In this document: piece by piece, positions 3,793 to 32,835 of the stretch
Position numbering within the stretch: the stretch's first letter is position 1
Layout of the letters: each line of letters opens with the position of its first letter
Source of the DNA: Ignavibacteriales bacterium CG_4_9_14_3_um_filter_34_10
Lineage (GTDB): Bacteria; Bacteroidota; Ignavibacteria; Ignavibacteriales; Melioribacteraceae
Reading direction: 5' to 3'
DNA: 40,378 nucleotides
Assembly: GCA_002790395.1 (NCBI GenBank)
Contig: PFVB01000180.1
Coordinates: forward strand, 2,349 to 42,726
Program-made: the position numbers and the translations under genes
The notes under the pieces: model-generated
What the model was told of the DNA's origin: nothing
The model's database searches: none
The model's input: only the letters and a program-made list of their open reading frames with translations

Positions 3793-4795
3793 CGCGAAAC
3801 CTTTTCATTAACTTTGCACGCACATAAAATTCTGCAATTGCATTTATAATAAAAGTAATTATAAACAATAACGAACCGATGAAAAATAAAACAGAATAAT
3901 GAGTTTCGCCAAAAACAACTTCTGCCATTTCTGCACCTATTGTAGCCGATAATGTTCTTACAGGTTCAAAAATATTAAACGAAGTGATTGGTGCATTTCC
4001 CGTAGCCATCAGCAAAATCATTGTTTCACCGAAAGCACGTCCAAACCCTAAAAGTAATGCAGCAAATATTCCGGGAAATGCTGCAGGCAGAATTACAAAA
4101 AATGCGGTTTGCCATTTTGTTGCCCCGAGTGCAAGACTTGCTTCCGAAAAATAATTTGGTACTGCACTCAAAGCATCTTCGGTAATCGTATAAACAATGG
4201 GAATTACAGCCAGTGACATTGCTAATCCGCCGACGAAAGCATTCAGCCTGTATGTGTAACCAAAAACATTCTGAAAGAAAGTTGCAAGCGTCATTAATGC
4301 AAAAAAGCCAATTACTACCGAAGGAAAACTTGCAAGCAGTTCTATTATTGGTTTTATAAATTCTTTGATTTTAATTGGCATAAATAACGATGTGAAAATT
4401 GCTGCAAGTATAGCAACAGGAGAACCAAACAGGACTGATATTAAAGTAACTTTCAGACTACCGACAAAAAGCGGAAGCAATCCGTATTTAGGTTCATCAC
4501 CAACGGGCTGCCAATCTTTGCCCATCAAATTTTTTATGGTTGATTCATCCGTGGTTGATGTTTTTTGTTTGGAATTGTTCTGAGATTCAGCTTCCAAACC
4601 GCTTATCTCTTCGCCGTAAGTTTCATATTGAATAGTTTCGGTTTGTTCAGCAGCCTTTTCTTTAGCGAAGAAAATTGGTGCGGCTTCCCTGAATACAAAA
4701 ACAAAAATCAGAATTATTACAACAAATGAAATAAATGCAACTGATTTTATTATTTTTTCAGCAAGGAACTCGCTAAGTCGGAATTTCTTTCTCAT
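3785..4795 (-). CDS. pstC: Phosphate ABC transporter permease PstC
   Basis: The 336-residue permease has a first helix at about 17-36, then an unusually long polar periplasmic stretch (about 45-95, rich in E, Q, S and T) before the characteristic 'W.P....P.YGLLPLFVGSL' entry to the transport domain. The EAA loop is EDALSAVPNYFSEASLALGAT, and GRAFGETMILLMATGN is a PstC hallmark. It partners PstA in the inner membrane. It lies 8 bases after pstS and overlaps pstA. The long loop is longer than in the E. coli protein and may contact the binding protein; that is inference. Confidence 0.96.
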   Translation of the reverse strand: MRKKFRLSEFLAEKIIKSVAFISFVVIILIFVFVFREAAPIFFAKEKAAEQTETIQYETYGEEISGLEAESQNNSKQKTSTTDESTIKNLMGKDWQPVGDEPKYGLLPLFVGSLKVTLISVLFGSPVAILAAIFTSLFMPIKIKEFIKPIIELLASFPSVVIGFFALMTLATFFQNVFGYTYRLNAFVGGLAMSLAVIPIVYTITEDALSAVPNYFSEASLALGATKWQTAFFVILPAAFPGIFAALLLGFGRAFGETMILLMATGNAPITSFNIFEPVRTLSATIGAEMAEVVFGETHYSVLFFIGSLLFIITFIINAIAEFYVRAKLMKRFRGE

Positions 4796-23298: not shown

Positions 23299-25776
23299 AT
23301 GAGTATAATTTTCATGATTGACATTGATAAAATAACAAAAGATTTCCGACTTTATAAAATTCTTGCGATTGTTTCCGCATTAATTTTGCTGCTGTTGTTT
23401 CCTTCGGTCAGAAATATTTTAAATAGTCAGACAGAAAATATTTTTCTGAAAAGTTATGGTTCAGACAAAACTGACACAAACATTGTAATAATCAGAATAG
23501 ATGAAACAACTATCAATTCACTTCAGGGCTGGCCGCTGAAACGAAGTTTTTATGCTCTTGCTTTTAATTATTTGCGAAAACTTAATGCAAAGAAAATTGG
23601 TTTGGAAGTCTTCCTTGGCAACCGGACTTCTGCAATCAGTATTTACAACAGACTTTTGGTGGATGAAATCAATCAGAACCCAAACGTTATTTTATCAGTA
23701 CTGCTGAATGATTTGAAATTCGAAAATGGAAGTTATATTTCTGATTCACTGATTGCACCGGATTTGAATACCGTAAATCTGAAAGTTAATATCGGACATA
23801 TAAATTATTTGCAGGACGATGGATTTTATATACCTGCAAGGGTTCTGGTAAAATCCAAAGGGGTCAATTCTTTCTCATCACTTATTGCTGATAAAAATGA
23901 ATTGTCGGATAATTATATAAAACTGAAGATAAATCATTCCTGGCGGGAATATCACAGTATTGAATTTGTGGATTTTCTGCAAACATTTGAACAGGACGAA
24001 AGTAAATATGAATTCATGAAAAATAAAATAATTCTTATCGGTGTAACCGATGAATTTATTGCAAAAAGTGTTGAAGGAGTTTTTGATTATAAAATTCCGG
24101 GAGTTGGTTTTCATGCCATTGCTGTTGACAATTTGCTGAATGACGAATTCCTGAATACAAATTTTAAAAATGTGTTGGCAATAATATTTCTGGTAATTCT
24201 ACTTGTTTTTACGATTCTTAATTTTGGTCGGAGAGAATTGTATTATGATATTTTCCTTTCATTCGGGCTGATATTATTGAGTTTTGTGCTTTATGTCTTT
24301 TTTGATATTTATCTGAATTATGCAATTTTTCTTTTGCCTGCATTATTCATCGTTGCAGCCTCGTTGATTCACTTTTGGATTCAGAAGAAAGAACAGCTTT
24401 CTGAAACAGTGAATGAAAATAAAATCCTGAATGAAATTATCAGAGCAAAAGAAATTGAACTGACCCGCTTTCAGGAAGAAATTTCAAAAAAGGAAATTGA
24501 GAATCAATCCGAACTGACACAGAAAATAGAAAAACTGAAATCGGAAATAGAAGCTCTGCAACAGTCACAGCAAACCAAAATTGATGAAGAAGAAAAAACG
24601 GAAATCGCCGAAGCAAAAACTTTTCAGGGGATTGTTTATAACAGCAGTTCAATTGAAAAAATTGTCGGCTTGATAAAAAAAGTTGCTCCTCAGGATGTTA
24701 CAATTTTAATTCTTGGTGAAAGTGGTACCGGAAAAGAACTTGTTGCAAATGCAATTCATAATCTTAGCAAAAGAAAACTGGAAAAATTCGTAGCTGTAAA
24801 TTGTGCCGCACTTACCGAAACACTTTTGGAGAGCGAACTTTTTGGACATGTTAGAGGTGCTTTCACAAATGCTATTAATGATAAAAAGGGAATTTTTGAA
24901 ACTGCAAATAATGGCACCGTTTTTCTAGATGAAATTGGTGAGACATCAGAAAATTTTCAGTCAAAATTGCTGCGCGTTCTTCAGTCGGGTGAAGTGCAGA
25001 AAGTCGGTTCAACGGAAACTATTTATGTGAATGTCAGAATTATTGCAGCTACGAATAAAAATCTTGAAGAACTTGTAATGCAAAAAAAATTCAGGGAGGA
25101 TTTGTATTACAGATTAAATGTTATTCCGGTTAATCTTCCTGCTTTGCGAGAAAGAAAAGAAGATATTCCTTTTCTTGCAAATTATTTTGCTGAGAAAGAA
25201 AATAAAATTCTGAAAATTTCTCAATACGTGATTGAACAGTTAATGAAATATGAATGGAAAGGAAATATCAGAGAACTTGAGTCGGTGATGAAAAGAGCTG
25301 CAATTTTTGCCCTCTCTGAATCACGTGATTTGATAAAACTGAAAGACCTGCCGGAAAATGTTTGCAATTATAAAAAACTGGATTTGGATAATCTGATTTT
25401 AAATTCTTTGCGAGAGAAAAGATTTTCTCATTCTTCAATAAATGAAACGTCCGCAGAATTGGGGAATATCAACCGTGCAATTGTTTCTGAACATTTGCGG
25501 GGAATGTTTTTCCGAAGCTTTGTTAAAAATGATTTCAATTTTTCAAAAGCTGTGGGTGAACTGGCAGAATCAGAAGATGAAATGGTATTAGCAAAACTTT
25601 CTTCGAAATGTGAAACTTATATCAGCAATATCGAAAAAGATGTGAATAAACTGAATGAAGACAATTTTGATGATGTGAAGGTAATATTTGCTTCAAAGTA
25701 CAAAAATCTTTCATCGAAGTATCATGAATATTTGGATAAAGTTATTCGGGAATTTATTTCAAAAAGGAAATTATGA
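23299..25776 (+). CDS. Membrane CHASE2 sensor fused to sigma54 AAA+ activator
   Basis: The 825-residue protein has a membrane helix at about 18-36, a periplasmic CHASE2 domain (about 45-285, with VIIRIDETTINSLQGWPLKR), three more helices (about 290-362) and a cytoplasmic coiled coil (about 370-440). The sigma54 AAA+ domain follows: Walker A GESGTGKE (473-480), GAFTNA (520-525) where GAFTGA is usual, Walker B VFLDEIGE with Asp544-Glu545, and the arginine region FREDLYYRLNVIPVNLPALRERKED. A helix-turn-helix-like segment is near 710-736 (INETSAELGNINRAIVSEHLRG), not a clear Fis type. It should sense an envelope signal and open sigma54 promoters. Its stop lies 5 bases before tandem repeats and 85 before a -24/-12 promoter, so the adjacent genes are the likely targets. 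ATG 23314 is an alternative start. Confidence 0.93.
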   Translation: MSIIFMIDIDKITKDFRLYKILAIVSALILLLLFPSVRNILNSQTENIFLKSYGSDKTDTNIVIIRIDETTINSLQGWPLKRSFYALAFNYLRKLNAKKIGLEVFLGNRTSAISIYNRLLVDEINQNPNVILSVLLNDLKFENGSYISDSLIAPDLNTVNLKVNIGHINYLQDDGFYIPARVLVKSKGVNSFSSLIADKNELSDNYIKLKINHSWREYHSIEFVDFLQTFEQDESKYEFMKNKIILIGVTDEFIAKSVEGVFDYKIPGVGFHAIAVDNLLNDEFLNTNFKNVLAIIFLVILLVFTILNFGRRELYYDIFLSFGLILLSFVLYVFFDIYLNYAIFLLPALFIVAASLIHFWIQKKEQLSETVNENKILNEIIRAKEIELTRFQEEISKKEIENQSELTQKIEKLKSEIEALQQSQQTKIDEEEKTEIAEAKTFQGIVYNSSSIEKIVGLIKKVAPQDVTILILGESGTGKELVANAIHNLSKRKLEKFVAVNCAALTETLLESELFGHVRGAFTNAINDKKGIFETANNGTVFLDEIGETSENFQSKLLRVLQSGEVQKVGSTETIYVNVRIIAATNKNLEELVMQKKFREDLYYRLNVIPVNLPALRERKEDIPFLANYFAEKENKILKISQYVIEQLMKYEWKGNIRELESVMKRAAIFALSESRDLIKLKDLPENVCNYKKLDLDNLILNSLREKRFSHSSINETSAELGNINRAIVSEHLRGMFFRSFVKNDFNFSKAVGELAESEDEMVLAKLSSKCETYISNIEKDVNKLNEDNFDDVKVIFASKYKNLSSKYHEYLDKVIREFISKRKL

Positions 25777-25780
25777 CTCA

Positions 25781-25813
25781 TCAGGCATTTGACCTGCAAT
25801 TTCAGGCATTTGA
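25781..25813 (+). promoter_or_regulatory. Tandem 12-bp direct repeats, candidate activator binding sites
   Basis: TCAGGCATTTGA occurs perfectly at 25781-25792 and again at 25802-25813. The spacing is 21 bases start to start, two helical turns, so both copies face the same side. They lie about 80 and 100 bases before the predicted start site of the sigma54 promoter at 25861-25876, the normal place for enhancer sites of such activators. I found no other copy in the window. Confidence 0.7.
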
Positions 25814-25860
25814 TTTTGATGAATTGTTTGTTAATTGAAGAAAAACAAAGATTTTATGTG

Positions 25861-25876
25861 CGGCACGGGGTTTGTT
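25861..25876 (+). promoter_or_regulatory. Sigma54 (-24/-12) promoter
   Basis: CGGCAC-GGGGT-TTGTT matches the consensus TGGCAC-N5-TTGCW with exact spacing; the differences are C for the first T and T for the -12 C. The start site should fall near 25887, giving a leader of about 50 bases to the ATG at 25938. It lies directly after the CHASE2 sigma54 activator gene and its tandem repeats. Confidence 0.7.
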
Positions 25877-25937
25877 TGGTAGTGAACAGAAAGGGTTGAG
25901 TTAGATTAATTAAATTAACAACAAAATGGAGGTTACA

Positions 25938-26879
25938 ATGTTATTATTCAAAAAAATATCCCAAACAGCTTTCCTGTTCGCATTCATGTTTTCATTTTTT
26001 GCTTGTCAGGAAAAAGACAATATTGTCAGTCCCGATTCAAACGGTTCAGTCTTCAAACAGTTAGTTGAAAGTGATGAAGATATTACTTCCTTCGAACCAA
26101 ATTATAATGAAGAAGATGCAATGAGTTTTCTCGGAAAACTTTCCAAGACCGTTTATCCTGTAAAAATCGGACAGAATATGAAACTTGTTAGCCGTGACTT
26201 GCAGATTGATTCAAGTCAGGAAACAGCTGTTGGAGTTCTCACAGAAACTTTTGACGGCAGACTTATAATTGCAGCTTCTTTTACAGAACCGACAAACCCA
26301 ATGTTCAGTAAGGTTGACACTGTTGTTTTCAAAAACTTTACAACCACAGTTACAAGAAAGATAAAATTTGAAAAAACAAATTCATCTGTTTCAAAAAGAA
26401 ATTGGAGAATCACATCTGTTTCTTTACCGGAAGGCGGAACAAGCAATCAAAGTGTTGAAATTACAAAAATGACTGTTACTCTTCCGAACGGAGATACAAT
26501 TGATGTTACTTCACCAAATGATTACTGGTTAGACAGATTCCCGGGAATCAGGCATCAGATTCCGGTTATAAATCGTGGTCAGGGAGTTAAATTAACCGTG
26601 GAAGTAAAAAGTCTTTTTGATGGTGAGGATTTTATAACTTTGACTTTTGGTGCAATACGTGGACAGGGACATCACAGAACCAAAGCCAGGTTTGAATTGG
26701 TTTCTTCTGAATTTGACGGAACTTATTACAATAAAGTTTACACACAGACATGGAACGAAGTAATGCAGCCTATGGGTCATAAACATGCAATTGTAAATGC
26801 TTTGCCAATGTCTTCTGTTAATGATTCTGATTCTCCGGTTGAAGAAAATTCATGGGGAATGCCGTATATTATTAAATAA
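25938..26879 (+). CDS. Lipoprotein, unknown function
   Basis: I start at ATG 25938 with GGAGG 5 bases upstream; the in-frame ATG at 25926 would overlap the ribosome site. The 313-residue product has a lipoprotein signal (MLLFKKISQTAFLFAFMFSF then FAC, Cys23). The mature part is mixed beta-rich, with two like-sounding stretches (TKMTVTLPNGDTIDVTSPND and a later GEDFITLTFGAIRGQGHH), and ends in a His/Gly/Met-containing tail (MQPMGHKHAIV). No family recognised. It is the first gene after the sigma54 promoter, so it is likely its main target; a hairpin after the gene may limit read-through to the rest of the cluster. Confidence 0.8.
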   Translation: MLLFKKISQTAFLFAFMFSFFACQEKDNIVSPDSNGSVFKQLVESDEDITSFEPNYNEEDAMSFLGKLSKTVYPVKIGQNMKLVSRDLQIDSSQETAVGVLTETFDGRLIIAASFTEPTNPMFSKVDTVVFKNFTTTVTRKIKFEKTNSSVSKRNWRITSVSLPEGGTSNQSVEITKMTVTLPNGDTIDVTSPNDYWLDRFPGIRHQIPVINRGQGVKLTVEVKSLFDGEDFITLTFGAIRGQGHHRTKARFELVSSEFDGTYYNKVYTQTWNEVMQPMGHKHAIVNALPMSSVNDSDSPVEENSWGMPYIIK

Positions 26880-26906: not shown

Positions 26907-26958
26907 ACTGTCATCCTGATCCGTCTCCGTGGGTTGACGGATGTCGAAGGATGACAGT
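26907..26958. terminator. Long hairpin between the two lipoprotein genes
   Basis: Perfect outer arms ACTGTCATCC (26907-26916) and GGATGACAGT (26949-26958) and inner arms TCCGTC (26920-26925) and GACGGA (26936-26941) form a long interrupted stem, followed by ATTTTAC. It could be a partial terminator or 3' stabiliser within the cluster. The TGTCATCCTGA wording also matches the palindromic repeat family at 38034-38165. Confidence 0.55.
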
Positions 26959-27018: not shown

Positions 27019-27930
27019 ATGAAAAATGCAATTTTATTTATAGTTATTAGCGTTTTGTTCAGCTTTTGTTCTGAGCAGGCACCAACGCAGCTTTTGGATG
27101 ATACTGCAAGTCCGAATGAACAGCTCGATATTGAAGTGCTGCCGAGAGAACAAAATGTTTTTGATTATTCAAGTGACTATGATTCGACAGGTATATTCGA
27201 ACCGATTAGGCAGGAATCATCTGTAATATTTGCAAACGGAATTAAAAACACTTATTCAAATATTACAGTTCGCCAGTTATACATGTCTTCAGTTTTAATT
27301 GACAAAAAAATGCCGGTTTTTCATCGCGGCGGAAGAATTATTGGATATTATTCAACTGCTGAAGGTAAGGTAAAATTTAATAATGAATATGCACAGATTT
27401 CTGACAGAAAAGTGAGAATAATGTTGAATGGTGTTTCAAAGGATACTTCGTTGGGAAAAATGTTTGTGATAAAGAAAAGATATCTTCTGAATATTCCGCA
27501 GAATTTTCCTTACAATTCAAGCATAAAATTTGAGTATGAAAAATCTGCGATGGGAAATCACAGAACTTCTTTTGATATAATTACTCCCGATGAAATTAAT
27601 GGTGAAATTAAAGTCAGCGGGAAAAAAAGTGATAAAGATTTGAAAATTGAATTAAAATGGAATGCTAAAAATTCGGGTAAAATAGAAATAATCATTGGTG
27701 GAGGCAGAAAGGATAAATTATTGATAAAACCATTGCTTCGGCTTAGGACAGATGATGATGGTTTGCTGAAATTACCGTGGACATTTCTTCGTTCGCTGCC
27801 TTTTGACCAATTCGATTATTTGGTTTTAAGTTTTGAAAGAGCTGTAAAAAAATCATTTTCAAATCAAATGATGGGCGAGAATCTTGTTATATCAAAAAGT
27901 ATTCACAATATTAAATTTGATATTCCTTAA
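27019..27930 (+). CDS. Lipoprotein, unknown function
   Basis: The 303-residue product has a lipoprotein signal peptide (MKNAILFIVISVLFSFC, Cys17) and an acidic linker after the cysteine. The mature part is beta-rich, with basic segments (KKSDKDLKIELKWNAKN, IIIGGGRKDKLLIKPLLRLR) and a closing 'FLRSLPFDQFDYLVLSFERA'. No family recognised. The ATG lacks a strong ribosome site. The next gene's frame overlaps its end by 47 bases if the first start is used, so the two are translated as a unit. Its place among exported proteins suggests an envelope role. Confidence 0.78.
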   Translation: MKNAILFIVISVLFSFCSEQAPTQLLDDTASPNEQLDIEVLPREQNVFDYSSDYDSTGIFEPIRQESSVIFANGIKNTYSNITVRQLYMSSVLIDKKMPVFHRGGRIIGYYSTAEGKVKFNNEYAQISDRKVRIMLNGVSKDTSLGKMFVIKKRYLLNIPQNFPYNSSIKFEYEKSAMGNHRTSFDIITPDEINGEIKVSGKKSDKDLKIELKWNAKNSGKIEIIIGGGRKDKLLIKPLLRLRTDDDGLLKLPWTFLRSLPFDQFDYLVLSFERAVKKSFSNQMMGENLVISKSIHNIKFDIP

Positions 27931-29893
27931 ATCATTTGCTCTTTTGCTTTTGGTTTGCAGTGTGTCCTATTCTCAGGAAAACTTAGATTTTATGGGAGGT
28001 TATCCAAGCCTAATGACTGATGGTTTTAGAAAAAATTCGTTTGAAAGCAATCCCGGAAATTTTGTTGCCAAAAGTGACTGGGAATTTTCGGCAATTTACG
28101 GTGCTGATTTTTCAAGTTCAGGCAGCAATATTTCAAATGATATTTTTCTGATTTCACTTTCAAAAAAAATGGACAGGCATTATTTTTATTTCAGATATAC
28201 ACCTGCTTTCAAAAAAAGTTTTATAATCTCAGCAGGAAATAACATTACAATCGACAGCTCATCTGCTTCATTAAAAACGACAATTAATTATTCAGAAAAA
28301 TTTGGGCTCGGTTATTCTTATTCTTTCGGCAGTAATTTTTCGCTGGGTTTTTCCACGAGATATTTTGAAGAAGAAATGAAAGAGGATGTGTTTAATTTTT
28401 TTATTGGCGACACTTCAATTCTTACAACATCTACATCTGTTTCACAAAAGAAATTCTGGCGGACAGATTTCGGAATGAATTATCTGTTGTCAGAACGTAT
28501 CAGATTAAATCTTTCCTCAAAAAATCTTTTTCTGTTAAATGAAAATGGAAATCTGAGCAATAAACATTTTGAATTAAAATTGAAAAAGGGAATTATCTTT
28601 GGGCTTGAATCAAAGCTTTCGGAAAATCTGGCTCTTAATTTTAACTGGGATGTTGCAAGTTCTTTTTTACTTGGTTCTTTTTACTTGTTTGAAATTTTTG
28701 GAGGGAAAGTTATTGGGGGAATAAACATAACACATGATCAAACTCAAAACCCTTTTATAAACGTAATCATGCCCACAGTTTCTTTCTCCTCCAACCTATA
28801 TTCTGTTTCTTTAAGTTATATTAATTACTTACAAAGCCGTAACAATCGTCTTTCGGATTTTGCAGAAAAAGGAATTCAAAATATTGTAAGTAATCAGTTT
28901 GCAGATGACAAGTTGCTGCTCTCAATGAATTTTGCACTCAGTTTCAAGCATGAAAAAGCTGTTGAGTTTTTAGACGTCGAAGTGACAAATGACATTTTTC
29001 CAACATTAACCGAAGAATTTGTGAATCATCCTTTTGCAATTGGACATGCTAAAAACCTGACTGATAAAACTATTTCAGTAAAGCCTATAAGTTTTATTCC
29101 TGGAATCAACAATGAACATATTTATTCGCCGACGGTTGAAATCGCGCCAAATTCCATAGGCGAAGTTAAATTTTTTACTCTCATTTCTGATGAGAAGAAT
29201 TACGAAAAAAGAAAAATTGATAATGCTGAATTTTTGCTTTTTACAACCGAGCCTGACTACGAAGATAAAACTGAAAAACCTGTTCTGATTAATACAAAAA
29301 ACAATTGGGATGGAAAGGTTAGCAATCTCCGTTATTTTGTTTACCGAAGCTTTGATTATTCACTTGACTTTGCAACTCGGACGATGAAAAATTATTCGTC
29401 AGCAATTGATTCAAATGTTTATCTGAAAAAATTTAATTCGGTAAAAGTTTTGTTTTCAGAGTTTGTAAAAAATATGAATTACTTTTCTGACCCGCGTACA
29501 AGTTTTGAATATGTTCAGTTTCCAAAAGAAACAATGGAAAGAAAAGGCGGTGACTGCGATGATTTGTCAGTCGCTTTTGCTTCAATACTTGAAATCGCTG
29601 GAATTGAAACAGCATTTGTTGATTTTAAGTCTGATGACGGAATCAGTCACGTGAATCTGCTTATAAATACAGGTTTGAATTCATCGCAGGCTGAATTAAT
29701 TACTCAAAATGACAAGAAGTATTTTCTGCGGGAAAATCAGAATGGGGAAGATGAAATATGGATTCCGCTTGAAACAACACATTTTGTAAGTTTTGAATCT
29801 TCATGGAATCTTGCAGCCGAAAAATTTTATCGTGAAGCAATTGAGAATTTTGGACTTCAAAAAGGGAAAGTTTTAATAACTGATATTTATTAG
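27884..29893 (+). CDS. Outer-membrane barrel-like protein with C-terminal transglutaminase-like domain
   Basis: The start is uncertain: TTG 27884 (with GGGCGAG upstream) or TTG 27917; both leave a signal peptide ending ...CSVSYSQ. Numbered from 27884, residues about 45-340 alternate polar and hydrophobic/aromatic positions in many short strands (FGLGYSYSFGSNFSLGFSTRYF), as in outer-membrane barrels. A beta-sandwich-like stretch follows (about 350-480). The C-terminus is transglutaminase-like: KGGDCDDLSVAFASILEIAGI with Cys558, SHVNLLI with His589, and IPLETTHF giving a possible acid. Such domains act as cysteine proteases, transferases or inactive binders. The combination is unusual. FecR-domain gene 29902 follows by 8 bases. 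Confidence 0.75.
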   Translation: MLYQKVFTILNLIFLKSFALLLLVCSVSYSQENLDFMGGYPSLMTDGFRKNSFESNPGNFVAKSDWEFSAIYGADFSSSGSNISNDIFLISLSKKMDRHYFYFRYTPAFKKSFIISAGNNITIDSSSASLKTTINYSEKFGLGYSYSFGSNFSLGFSTRYFEEEMKEDVFNFFIGDTSILTTSTSVSQKKFWRTDFGMNYLLSERIRLNLSSKNLFLLNENGNLSNKHFELKLKKGIIFGLESKLSENLALNFNWDVASSFLLGSFYLFEIFGGKVIGGINITHDQTQNPFINVIMPTVSFSSNLYSVSLSYINYLQSRNNRLSDFAEKGIQNIVSNQFADDKLLLSMNFALSFKHEKAVEFLDVEVTNDIFPTLTEEFVNHPFAIGHAKNLTDKTISVKPISFIPGINNEHIYSPTVEIAPNSIGEVKFFTLISDEKNYEKRKIDNAEFLLFTTEPDYEDKTEKPVLINTKNNWDGKVSNLRYFVYRSFDYSLDFATRTMKNYSSAIDSNVYLKKFNSVKVLFSEFVKNMNYFSDPRTSFEYVQFPKETMERKGGDCDDLSVAFASILEIAGIETAFVDFKSDDGISHVNLLINTGLNSSQAELITQNDKKYFLRENQNGEDEIWIPLETTHFVSFESSWNLAAEKFYREAIENFGLQKGKVLITDIY

Positions 29894-29901
29894 AGGTGTT
29901 T

Positions 29902-30576
29902 ATGAAAATTTTAATGTTTGTATTATTTGTCAGTCAGATTTTATTTGCTCAGGATTTTATTGTTCAAAAAGTTTCGGGAAATGTTTTTGTTCAAAAAGGA
30001 TTTGAAGAGAAAACACAAAAAGTAAATACCGGCGATAAATTAAAAAGTAATGACTTGATTATCACAGATGAAAGTGCTTTCATTCATCTTAAAGATAAAA
30101 ACGGAAATTCATTTGTGCTGAAATCAAATTCGGCTGTTGGTGTGAATTATTTGAGAAAAATGTCACTAAACGATTTGATTTTGGCTTTAACGCAGGAAGA
30201 AATCAGAACTGTTCCGCGAAACAGCAACAAAACACCAAATACGGCAGTTTATGGCACTGAAGCAAGAATGAAAAAACCATTTGATTTTCAGAACAAACTC
30301 GGGCAGAAGAAAATTAACGGTGCGAAGCAACTTGCGGAAAGTGGATTTGTCGAATCGGCAATACTAGCAGCGAAAGAGACTTTCAGGAAATATCCTGCAA
30401 CCGGTAAAAATTTTGGTGACAGACTTTATTTTGCTGACCTGGTTAAAAATCTTGGACTTGATGAAGAATCAATTTCAGAATACAATAAAATTTCAAAAAT
30501 TGCTGAAACAGATGCTCAAAAAGAAATATTAAGTAATCGAATAGAGGGAGTAAATCTTAAAATAATTCGGAATTGA
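29902..30576 (+). CDS. FecR-domain protein, exported
   Basis: I start at ATG 29902, preceded by AGAGG that overlaps the upstream stop; the GTG at 29896 lies inside that site. The 224-residue product has a signal peptide (MKILMFVLFVSQILFAQ) and a FecR domain at about 20-90 (VQKVSGNVFVQKG, VNTGDKLKSNDLIITDESAFIHLKD). The C-terminal part (about 125-224) is helical and resembles TPR-like repeats (AKQLAESGFVESAILAAKETFRKYP). It lacks a membrane anchor, so it is probably free in the periplasm rather than a classic FecR anti-sigma. In other bacteria FecR domains occur next to CHASE2 proteins, as I recall, so it may feed the CHASE2 sensor; this is inference. Confidence 0.85.
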   Translation: MKILMFVLFVSQILFAQDFIVQKVSGNVFVQKGFEEKTQKVNTGDKLKSNDLIITDESAFIHLKDKNGNSFVLKSNSAVGVNYLRKMSLNDLILALTQEEIRTVPRNSNKTPNTAVYGTEARMKKPFDFQNKLGQKKINGAKQLAESGFVESAILAAKETFRKYPATGKNFGDRLYFADLVKNLGLDEESISEYNKISKIAETDAQKEILSNRIEGVNLKIIRN

Positions 30577-30648: not shown

Positions 30649-31491
30649 ATGAAAAAAATATTCGACAATATCAGTGTAAAAACAAGCAAATTAATCACGA
30701 ATTCATATTCAACTTCTTTCAGTCTTGGAATTCGCGCATTCTCTCCCAAATTCAGAGAACCAATTTATTCTATTTATGGATTTGTCAGAATTGCTGATGA
30801 AATTGTTGATTCTTTTCATGATTATGATAAAATCCTGCTGATGAAAAAATTCCGGGAAGATACATTTGAAGCAATAAAACTTGGTATCTCAAGTAATCCG
30901 GTTCTTAACTCCTTTCAGGCAGTTGTAAGAAAATATAATATTGATTATCAGCTCATAGATAAATTTTTAAAAAGTATGGAGATGGATTTGACAGAAAAAA
31001 CTTATGAGCGTAATAGTTATGATGATTATATTTTTGGGTCAGCAGAAGCTGTCGGATTGATGTGTTTAAAGGTTTTTGTTGGTGGCGATAAACTTAAATA
31101 AGAAAAATTAAAATTTTCGGCTCAAATGCAGGGTTCGGCTTTTCAAAAAGCAAATTTTTTGCATGATATCAAAAGTGATTTGGATGAGAGAGGCAGAATT
31201 TACCTCCCCGATGTACAACATTCCGAAAAAATATCTGATGAAAATAAAATCCGCCTTGAAAAAGAAGTGGAATATGAGTTTGATGAAGCACTGAAAGGTA
31301 TAATGAAACTTCCAATGGGCGTAAAACTTGGGGTTTACTCTGCTTACCTTTATTACCGCATGTTGTTCAATAAAATCAAAAAAATGAAAGCACAGGATTT
31401 GCTTAAAAAGCGAGTAAGAGTTTCTGATTTTCAAAAACTTGTTTTACTTATTAAATCGGTTTTTCAAATAAAAATTCTTAAACTTATTTAG
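30649..31491 (+). pseudogene. crtB: Phytoene synthase, interrupted by an in-frame TAA
   Basis: The frame is homologous along its full length (281 codons, normal for the family) but is broken by TAA at 31099-31101, where relatives have tyrosine (GGDKLK-stop-EKLKFSAQMQGSAFQ). Both Asp-rich motifs remain: DEIVD near residue 48 and NFLHDIKSDLDERGRIYLP near residue 170, the latter after the stop. Translation should stop at residue 150, before the second diphosphate-binding motif, so the product would be inactive. Intact CrtB joins two geranylgeranyl diphosphates to phytoene, the first carotenoid step. It heads a crtB-crtI-cyclase cluster whose crtI is also broken. Confidence 0.88.
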
Positions 31492-31520
31492 TAAAACCAT
31501 TAATAAATACAAACTGACAA

Positions 31521-32835
<1,315 letters not shown>

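Follow-up and report, generated by a model that had tools for sequence, protein, structure and literature searches.

A predicted sigma54 switch linking a CHASE2-containing activator, paired direct repeats and a cell-envelope operon in the Ignavibacteria

The stretch of DNA analysed here (the window; 40,378 nucleotides from Ignavibacteriales bacterium CG_4_9_14_3_um_filter_34_10) most likely carries a self-contained sigma54 switch, in which a membrane-bound bacterial enhancer-binding protein (bEBP) acts on paired sites and activates an envelope operon that begins at 25938. The arrangement is conserved in dozens of relatives across the class and is very probably a real, undescribed cell-envelope gene switch made of known sigma54 parts. 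In the proposed mechanism, an envelope signal would enter through the periplasmic CHASE2 domain of the membrane-anchored bEBP, and the C-terminal helix-turn-helix domain would bind two head-to-tail sites, two helical turns apart, as their conservation suggests. The cytoplasmic AAA+ domain would then assemble on the DNA and remodel the RNA polymerase-sigma54 held at the -24/-12 promoter, which would turn on the operon. The features are listed in Table 1.

Table 1. Features of the predicted switch and its target operon, in window coordinates.
Feature	Coordinates	Strand	Basis or remark
CHASE2-bEBP, predicted membrane-anchored sigma54 activator, 825 aa	23299-25776	+	Pfam domains, hydrophobic segments, 23 orthologs aligned
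CHASE2 periplasmic sensory domain, aa 27-302	23377-24204	+	Pfam
AAA+ sigma54-interaction domain, aa 446-611	24634-25131	+	Pfam, ortholog alignment
C-terminal DNA-binding candidate domain, aa 690-825	25366-25773	+	AlphaFold2 model
Enhancer repeat 1 (putative), TCAGGCATTTGA	25781-25792	+	Centre about -100; conserved in relatives
Enhancer repeat 2 (putative), TCAGGCATTTGA	25802-25813	+	Centre about -79; conserved in relatives
Predicted sigma54 -24/-12 promoter, CGGCAC-N5-TTGTT	25861-25876	+	Predicted start near 25887
Target gene 1: lipoprotein, predicted beta-sandwich fold	25938-26879	+	
Target gene 2: second lipoprotein	27019-27930	+	
Target gene 3: PorV-like outer-membrane barrel with transglutaminase-like domain	27911-29893	+	Weak matches; conserved
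Target gene 4: secreted FecR-like protein with LapA retention-module-like domain	29902-30576	+	

A first-pass annotation of the window had described two perfect 12-bp repeats, the first starting 5 bases past the stop of a sigma54 activator gene, and a -24/-12-like element ahead of a lipoprotein gene. All of this holds: the repeats agree to the base and lie 21 bp apart from start to start, the activator stop falls at 25776, and the promoter-like element, which reads CGGCACGGGGTTTGTT, lies about 60 bases 5' of the lipoprotein ATG. The alternative ATG at 25926 given by the ORF finder is less likely to be the start than 25938, because the GGAGG at 25928-25932 provides a ribosome site for the latter. 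No further exact copy of the 12-mer is present within the window, and the paired motif YCAGGCR-N14-YCAGGCR occurs only once in the entire 2.69-Mb assembly. The sigma54 promoter consensus is TGGCACN5-7TTGCT (PMC12316311), from which the window promoter departs at two positions; it is a weak match. When scored with a matrix built without the window's own copy, it is the third best of all window 16-mers, and the two better matches, at 4376 and 15730, both lie within listed ORFs.

The identification of the upstream gene as a sigma54 activator is confirmed by Pfam, which reports Sigma54_activat (PF00158, 4.4e-69) in addition to CHASE2 (PF05226, 6.9e-26) and AAA_lid_14; the conserved start of the gene is probably 23317. 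The AAA+ domain contains a Walker A motif (GESGTGKE) and a GAFTGA-type loop for sigma54 contact, which together with the Sigma54_activat match place the protein among the bEBPs. The loop, at 24856-24873, reads GAFTNA, not GAFTGA, and in the aligned orthologs it takes the form G[AS]FT[NDGS]A, with variation confined to the N position or to the first A (A/S). At the N-terminus no receiver domain is present; that region instead holds CHASE2 and two hydrophobic segments (aa 15-42 and 284-362) that flank it. These predicted transmembrane helices would anchor the activator in the membrane, and a CHASE2 domain with flanking transmembrane helices is the architecture of a CHASE2 receptor. Between sensor and motor, a linker at about aa 375-430 is charged and, as read from the sequence, helical-looking. 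The window's own genome also contains one rpoN (PF04552, 1.4e-58), a gene on whose presence the first-pass annotation had made its proposal depend, and 17 strong Sigma54_activat matches, both in keeping with a sigma54 switch.

The C-terminal 136 residues of the activator are modelled by AlphaFold2 as an all-helical domain of seven helices (mean pLDDT 93.6), in which an HTH-like helix pair is found at about 25435-25527. A Pfam search of this region gives no family at the accepted threshold, a PDB fold search with the model gives no match at E<=0.001, and a PDB search with the sequence returns nothing useful. The Fis-type helix-turn-helix HTH_8 is absent from the Pfam families listed for 27 such C-termini, where weak generic HTH matches alone appear; its lack does not exclude membership, as HTH_8 is not found in every bEBP. 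Autoregulation of the bEBP through the paired sites was also considered and is unsupported: there are no such sites upstream of the activator gene, which is therefore probably not self-activated through them.

Comparison across 79 genomes of the window's family reveals that lipoprotein 1 is present in 40 and the bEBP C-terminus, as a strong match, in 29, and that the order bEBP, sites, lipoprotein, lipoprotein, PorV-TG, FecR-like is kept in nearly all bEBP-positive genomes examined. Two CAGGC cores precede lipoprotein 1 at 26 loci, and a 27th carries CATGCA with CAGGCA; the spacing is 21 bp in 24 of these 27 and 20 or 22 bp in the other three. Because CAGGC cores had been searched for, an unbiased repeat scan was added, in which a near-exact direct repeat appears at offset 21 in 23 of the 27 orthologous operon upstream regions, every other offset is found in at most 7 loci, and control stretches inside two neighbouring genes reach at most 7 at any offset with no peak. 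The pattern CAGGCA-N14..16-CAGGCA-N45..75-GGCAY gives 43 matches in the 79 genomes versus 3 for a reversed control. The strict site pattern is matched in 23 of the 29 genomes with the bEBP versus 2 of the 50 without it (Fisher p 2e-12), and the remaining six bEBP-positive genomes carry one-letter variants of the same sites. At L037 and L038, lipoprotein loci whose genomes give no bEBP match, repeats and promoter are both missing. At the lipoprotein-1 homologs L158, L159, L160, L161 and L162 the genome has no bEBP and the rest of the operon is not nearby; a separate lipoprotein branch under other control therefore exists. In genome G054 (locus L154, 3289-5805) the bEBP gene and the repeats are about 2.5 kb apart, with an apparent copy of the bEBP C-terminal end immediately 5' of the repeats, perhaps as the result of an insertion with partial duplication.

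Orthologs of the bEBP extend to other families of the order and the class, and the repeats in their intergenic regions are likewise conserved, as the first-pass annotation had proposed to check. The paired sites read CAGGCR or CATGCR in the order and CCGGCA or CCCGCA in the class, and the spacing at 13 order and class loci is 21 bp in 11 and 22 bp in 2, with peaks in an unbiased autocorrelation as well; at one order locus (G364) the pair is poorer, CAGACG/AAGACA. Downstream of the sites, all 13 loci have TGGCAY or a near match to it and then a lipoprotein gene. All 15 bEBP-positive order and class genomes examined have the PorV-TG gene; in 5 bEBP-negative ones it is missing or marginal. Among the order genomes examined, most have the operon unlinked to the bEBP gene or in a position that is not downstream of it. 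The region adjacent to the bEBP gene there had suggested loss of the sites, an interpretation that was rejected, as the operon has relocated and pairs of the CAGGCR or CATGCR kind, 21 or 22 bp apart, are found in its promoter. Sites are kept in the unlinked state in G003, order family f2 and G317, and the activator therefore acts in trans in such genomes. The predicted recognition helix changes along with the sites, being [SN]RTxxxEN in the CAGGCA/CATGCA clades and NR[GS]TVAEY in the CCGGCA/CCCGCA clades; across these few clades the correlation is consistent with recognition of the sites by the C-terminal domain of the bEBP itself. From linkage, co-occurrence and this clade-wise covariation, we infer that the repeats are bound by the cognate bEBP.

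The common promoter form in the relatives is TGGCAY-N5-NTG, with TGGCAY in nearly all family promoters, where GGCA is fixed by the design of the search, and TG at -12 in most. At the -24/-12 element, whose conservation had also been proposed as a check, the GG of -24 is kept, whereas the C at -12 is not conserved and TG alone persists. Class-level promoters read TGGCACG-N4-TTG. In most family sites, dispersed ones included, the second repeat is found either about 57-60 bp or about 68-73 bp upstream of -24 (with a few exceptions, at 50 and 123), and in the class it lies 59-135 bp upstream. Across lineages the site pairs are found at variable distances, about 50-135 bp 5' of -24, as is possible for an enhancer. 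The longer spacer is found in about half of the family sites, and the window belongs to the short group. In the long-spacing group, about 12 of 17 sites (L086, L085, L092, L035, L030 and others) have a dyad, TTAACTCATT...AATRAGTTAA, centred 27-28.5 bp upstream of -24, of which the examples are weak singly and the position recurrent; it is not found in the window. This dyad suggests a second input at those promoters and may be bound by a second regulator or a bending protein.

The products of the operon, namely lipoproteins, a weakly PorV-like barrel and a FecR-like protein, make an envelope or surface role likely; the predicted fold of lipoprotein 1 shows weak matches to RbmA and Ig-like domains. 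In genus g3 and other relatives, extra paired sites lie 5' of secreted or envelope genes, which encode WXXGXW proteins, carboxypeptidase-regulatory-domain proteins with type IX sorting tails, other proteins with such tails and small predicted membrane proteins. The one-input local circuit suggested by the first-pass annotation consequently fits part of the data: with one paired site in its own genome the circuit looks local there, but relatives have dispersed targets and unlinked activators. In these relatives, the circuit is probably a small regulon, with the same activator acting in trans on scattered genes for surface and type IX-secreted proteins. Separately, a strong hairpin at 26907-26958 between the two lipoprotein genes has 11-bp perfect arms (ACTGTCATCCT/AGGATGACAGT) and one partial copy (81%) elsewhere in the genome; it may function as an attenuator or belong to a dispersed repeat. 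Beyond the operon, carotenoid-type genes at 30649-32788 appear split into short ORFs (30649-31101, with a phytoene synthase match, 31126-31491, 31653-32306 and 32483-32788), possibly through frameshifts or assembly errors.

Other explanations of the locus were weighed against these data. It is unlikely that the sigma54 promoter is real and the repeats are bound by another regulator, with the neighbouring bEBP acting from solution or elsewhere, given that the sites co-occur with the bEBP across the 79 genomes, lie directly 3' of its gene in most and shift their letters in step with its predicted recognition helix. What speaks for another regulator is the presence of 17 strong Sigma54_activat matches in the window's own genome, the further dyad of the long-spacing promoters, through which extra regulators may act, and the form of the sites, which are direct repeats, whereas the enhancer sites of bEBPs are usually described as dyads. 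A reading in which a housekeeping promoter, or read-through out of the activator gene, drives the operon and the conserved elements serve otherwise (for example, as an RNA leader) is considerably less probable still. In its favour are the imperfect -24/-12 match in the window and an intergenic gap short enough to be read through. Against it, no Bacteroidota-type -7 element (TAnnTTTG) is present in 25700-25945, the sigma54 spacing of the -24/-12 element is kept across the class, and the expected start is downstream of the repeats. Additionally, the repeats and the -24 element are retained where the bEBP gene is unlinked, so that read-through from it is impossible at those loci. AT-rich DNA and a short -24/-12 motif, outscored twice inside window ORFs, would make a chance duplication and a chance promoter match conceivable in a single sequence; the comparative data refute this, as orthologous positions are conserved at 27 family and 13 order and class loci, and its probability is negligible.

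Activation of the envelope operon by the membrane bEBP at the paired sites is accordingly the favoured reading, even with the points that count against it: the unconserved C at -12, the two departures of the window promoter from the consensus, the GAFTNA loop, the use of direct repeats and a candidate DNA-binding domain that belongs to no recognised family. Chances are about equal for and against a wider proposal, that a new family of membrane-anchored sigma54 activators, class-wide in distribution, reads head-to-tail sites with an unclassified C-terminal fold, holds its enhancer at the inner membrane, turns an envelope signal into transcription within a single protein, and regulates outer-membrane and type IX-secreted proteins. 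A single membrane protein apparently combines the sensor, the AAA+ motor and the DNA-binding domain, and its enhancer, promoter and envelope targets lie next to its gene. The site pair exists in dozens of natural variants, with four core sequences and one spacing, so that both the protein-DNA code and the enhancer geometry are open to direct test; the pairs also provide a sequence-based way into an undescribed envelope regulon with a link to the type IX secretion system.

Signaling-helix proteins that join sensors to NtrC-like AAA+ ATPases have been surveyed (PMC1592074), and the window activator resembles them in that a predicted helical linker connects its sensor to an NtrC-like AAA+ domain; that survey is general, and no description of this activator family, its sites or its targets was found. 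The open literature searched yielded no paper in which CHASE2 is paired with sigma54 interaction domains. Typical bEBPs are soluble and take their input from a separate sensor kinase or a ligand. With NtrC/NifA-type systems, the window activator shares the Sigma54_activat AAA+ domain with a GAFTGA-type loop, the C-terminal HTH-like region, sites 80-100 bp upstream of the predicted start and a predicted -24/-12 promoter. It differs in having a predicted transmembrane CHASE2 sensor without receiver or GAF input and a C-terminal domain that is not HTH_8 by Pfam, and its system differs in the direct repeats at a fixed 21-bp pitch and the unconserved -12 C. FecR is associated with CHASE2, which provides a lead, as the operon also encodes a FecR-like protein. 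Like the CHASE2 receptors among adenylate/guanylate cyclases, Ser/Thr kinases and diguanylate cyclases, the window protein combines CHASE2, transmembrane helices and a helical linker, whereas its output domain is a sigma54 activator.
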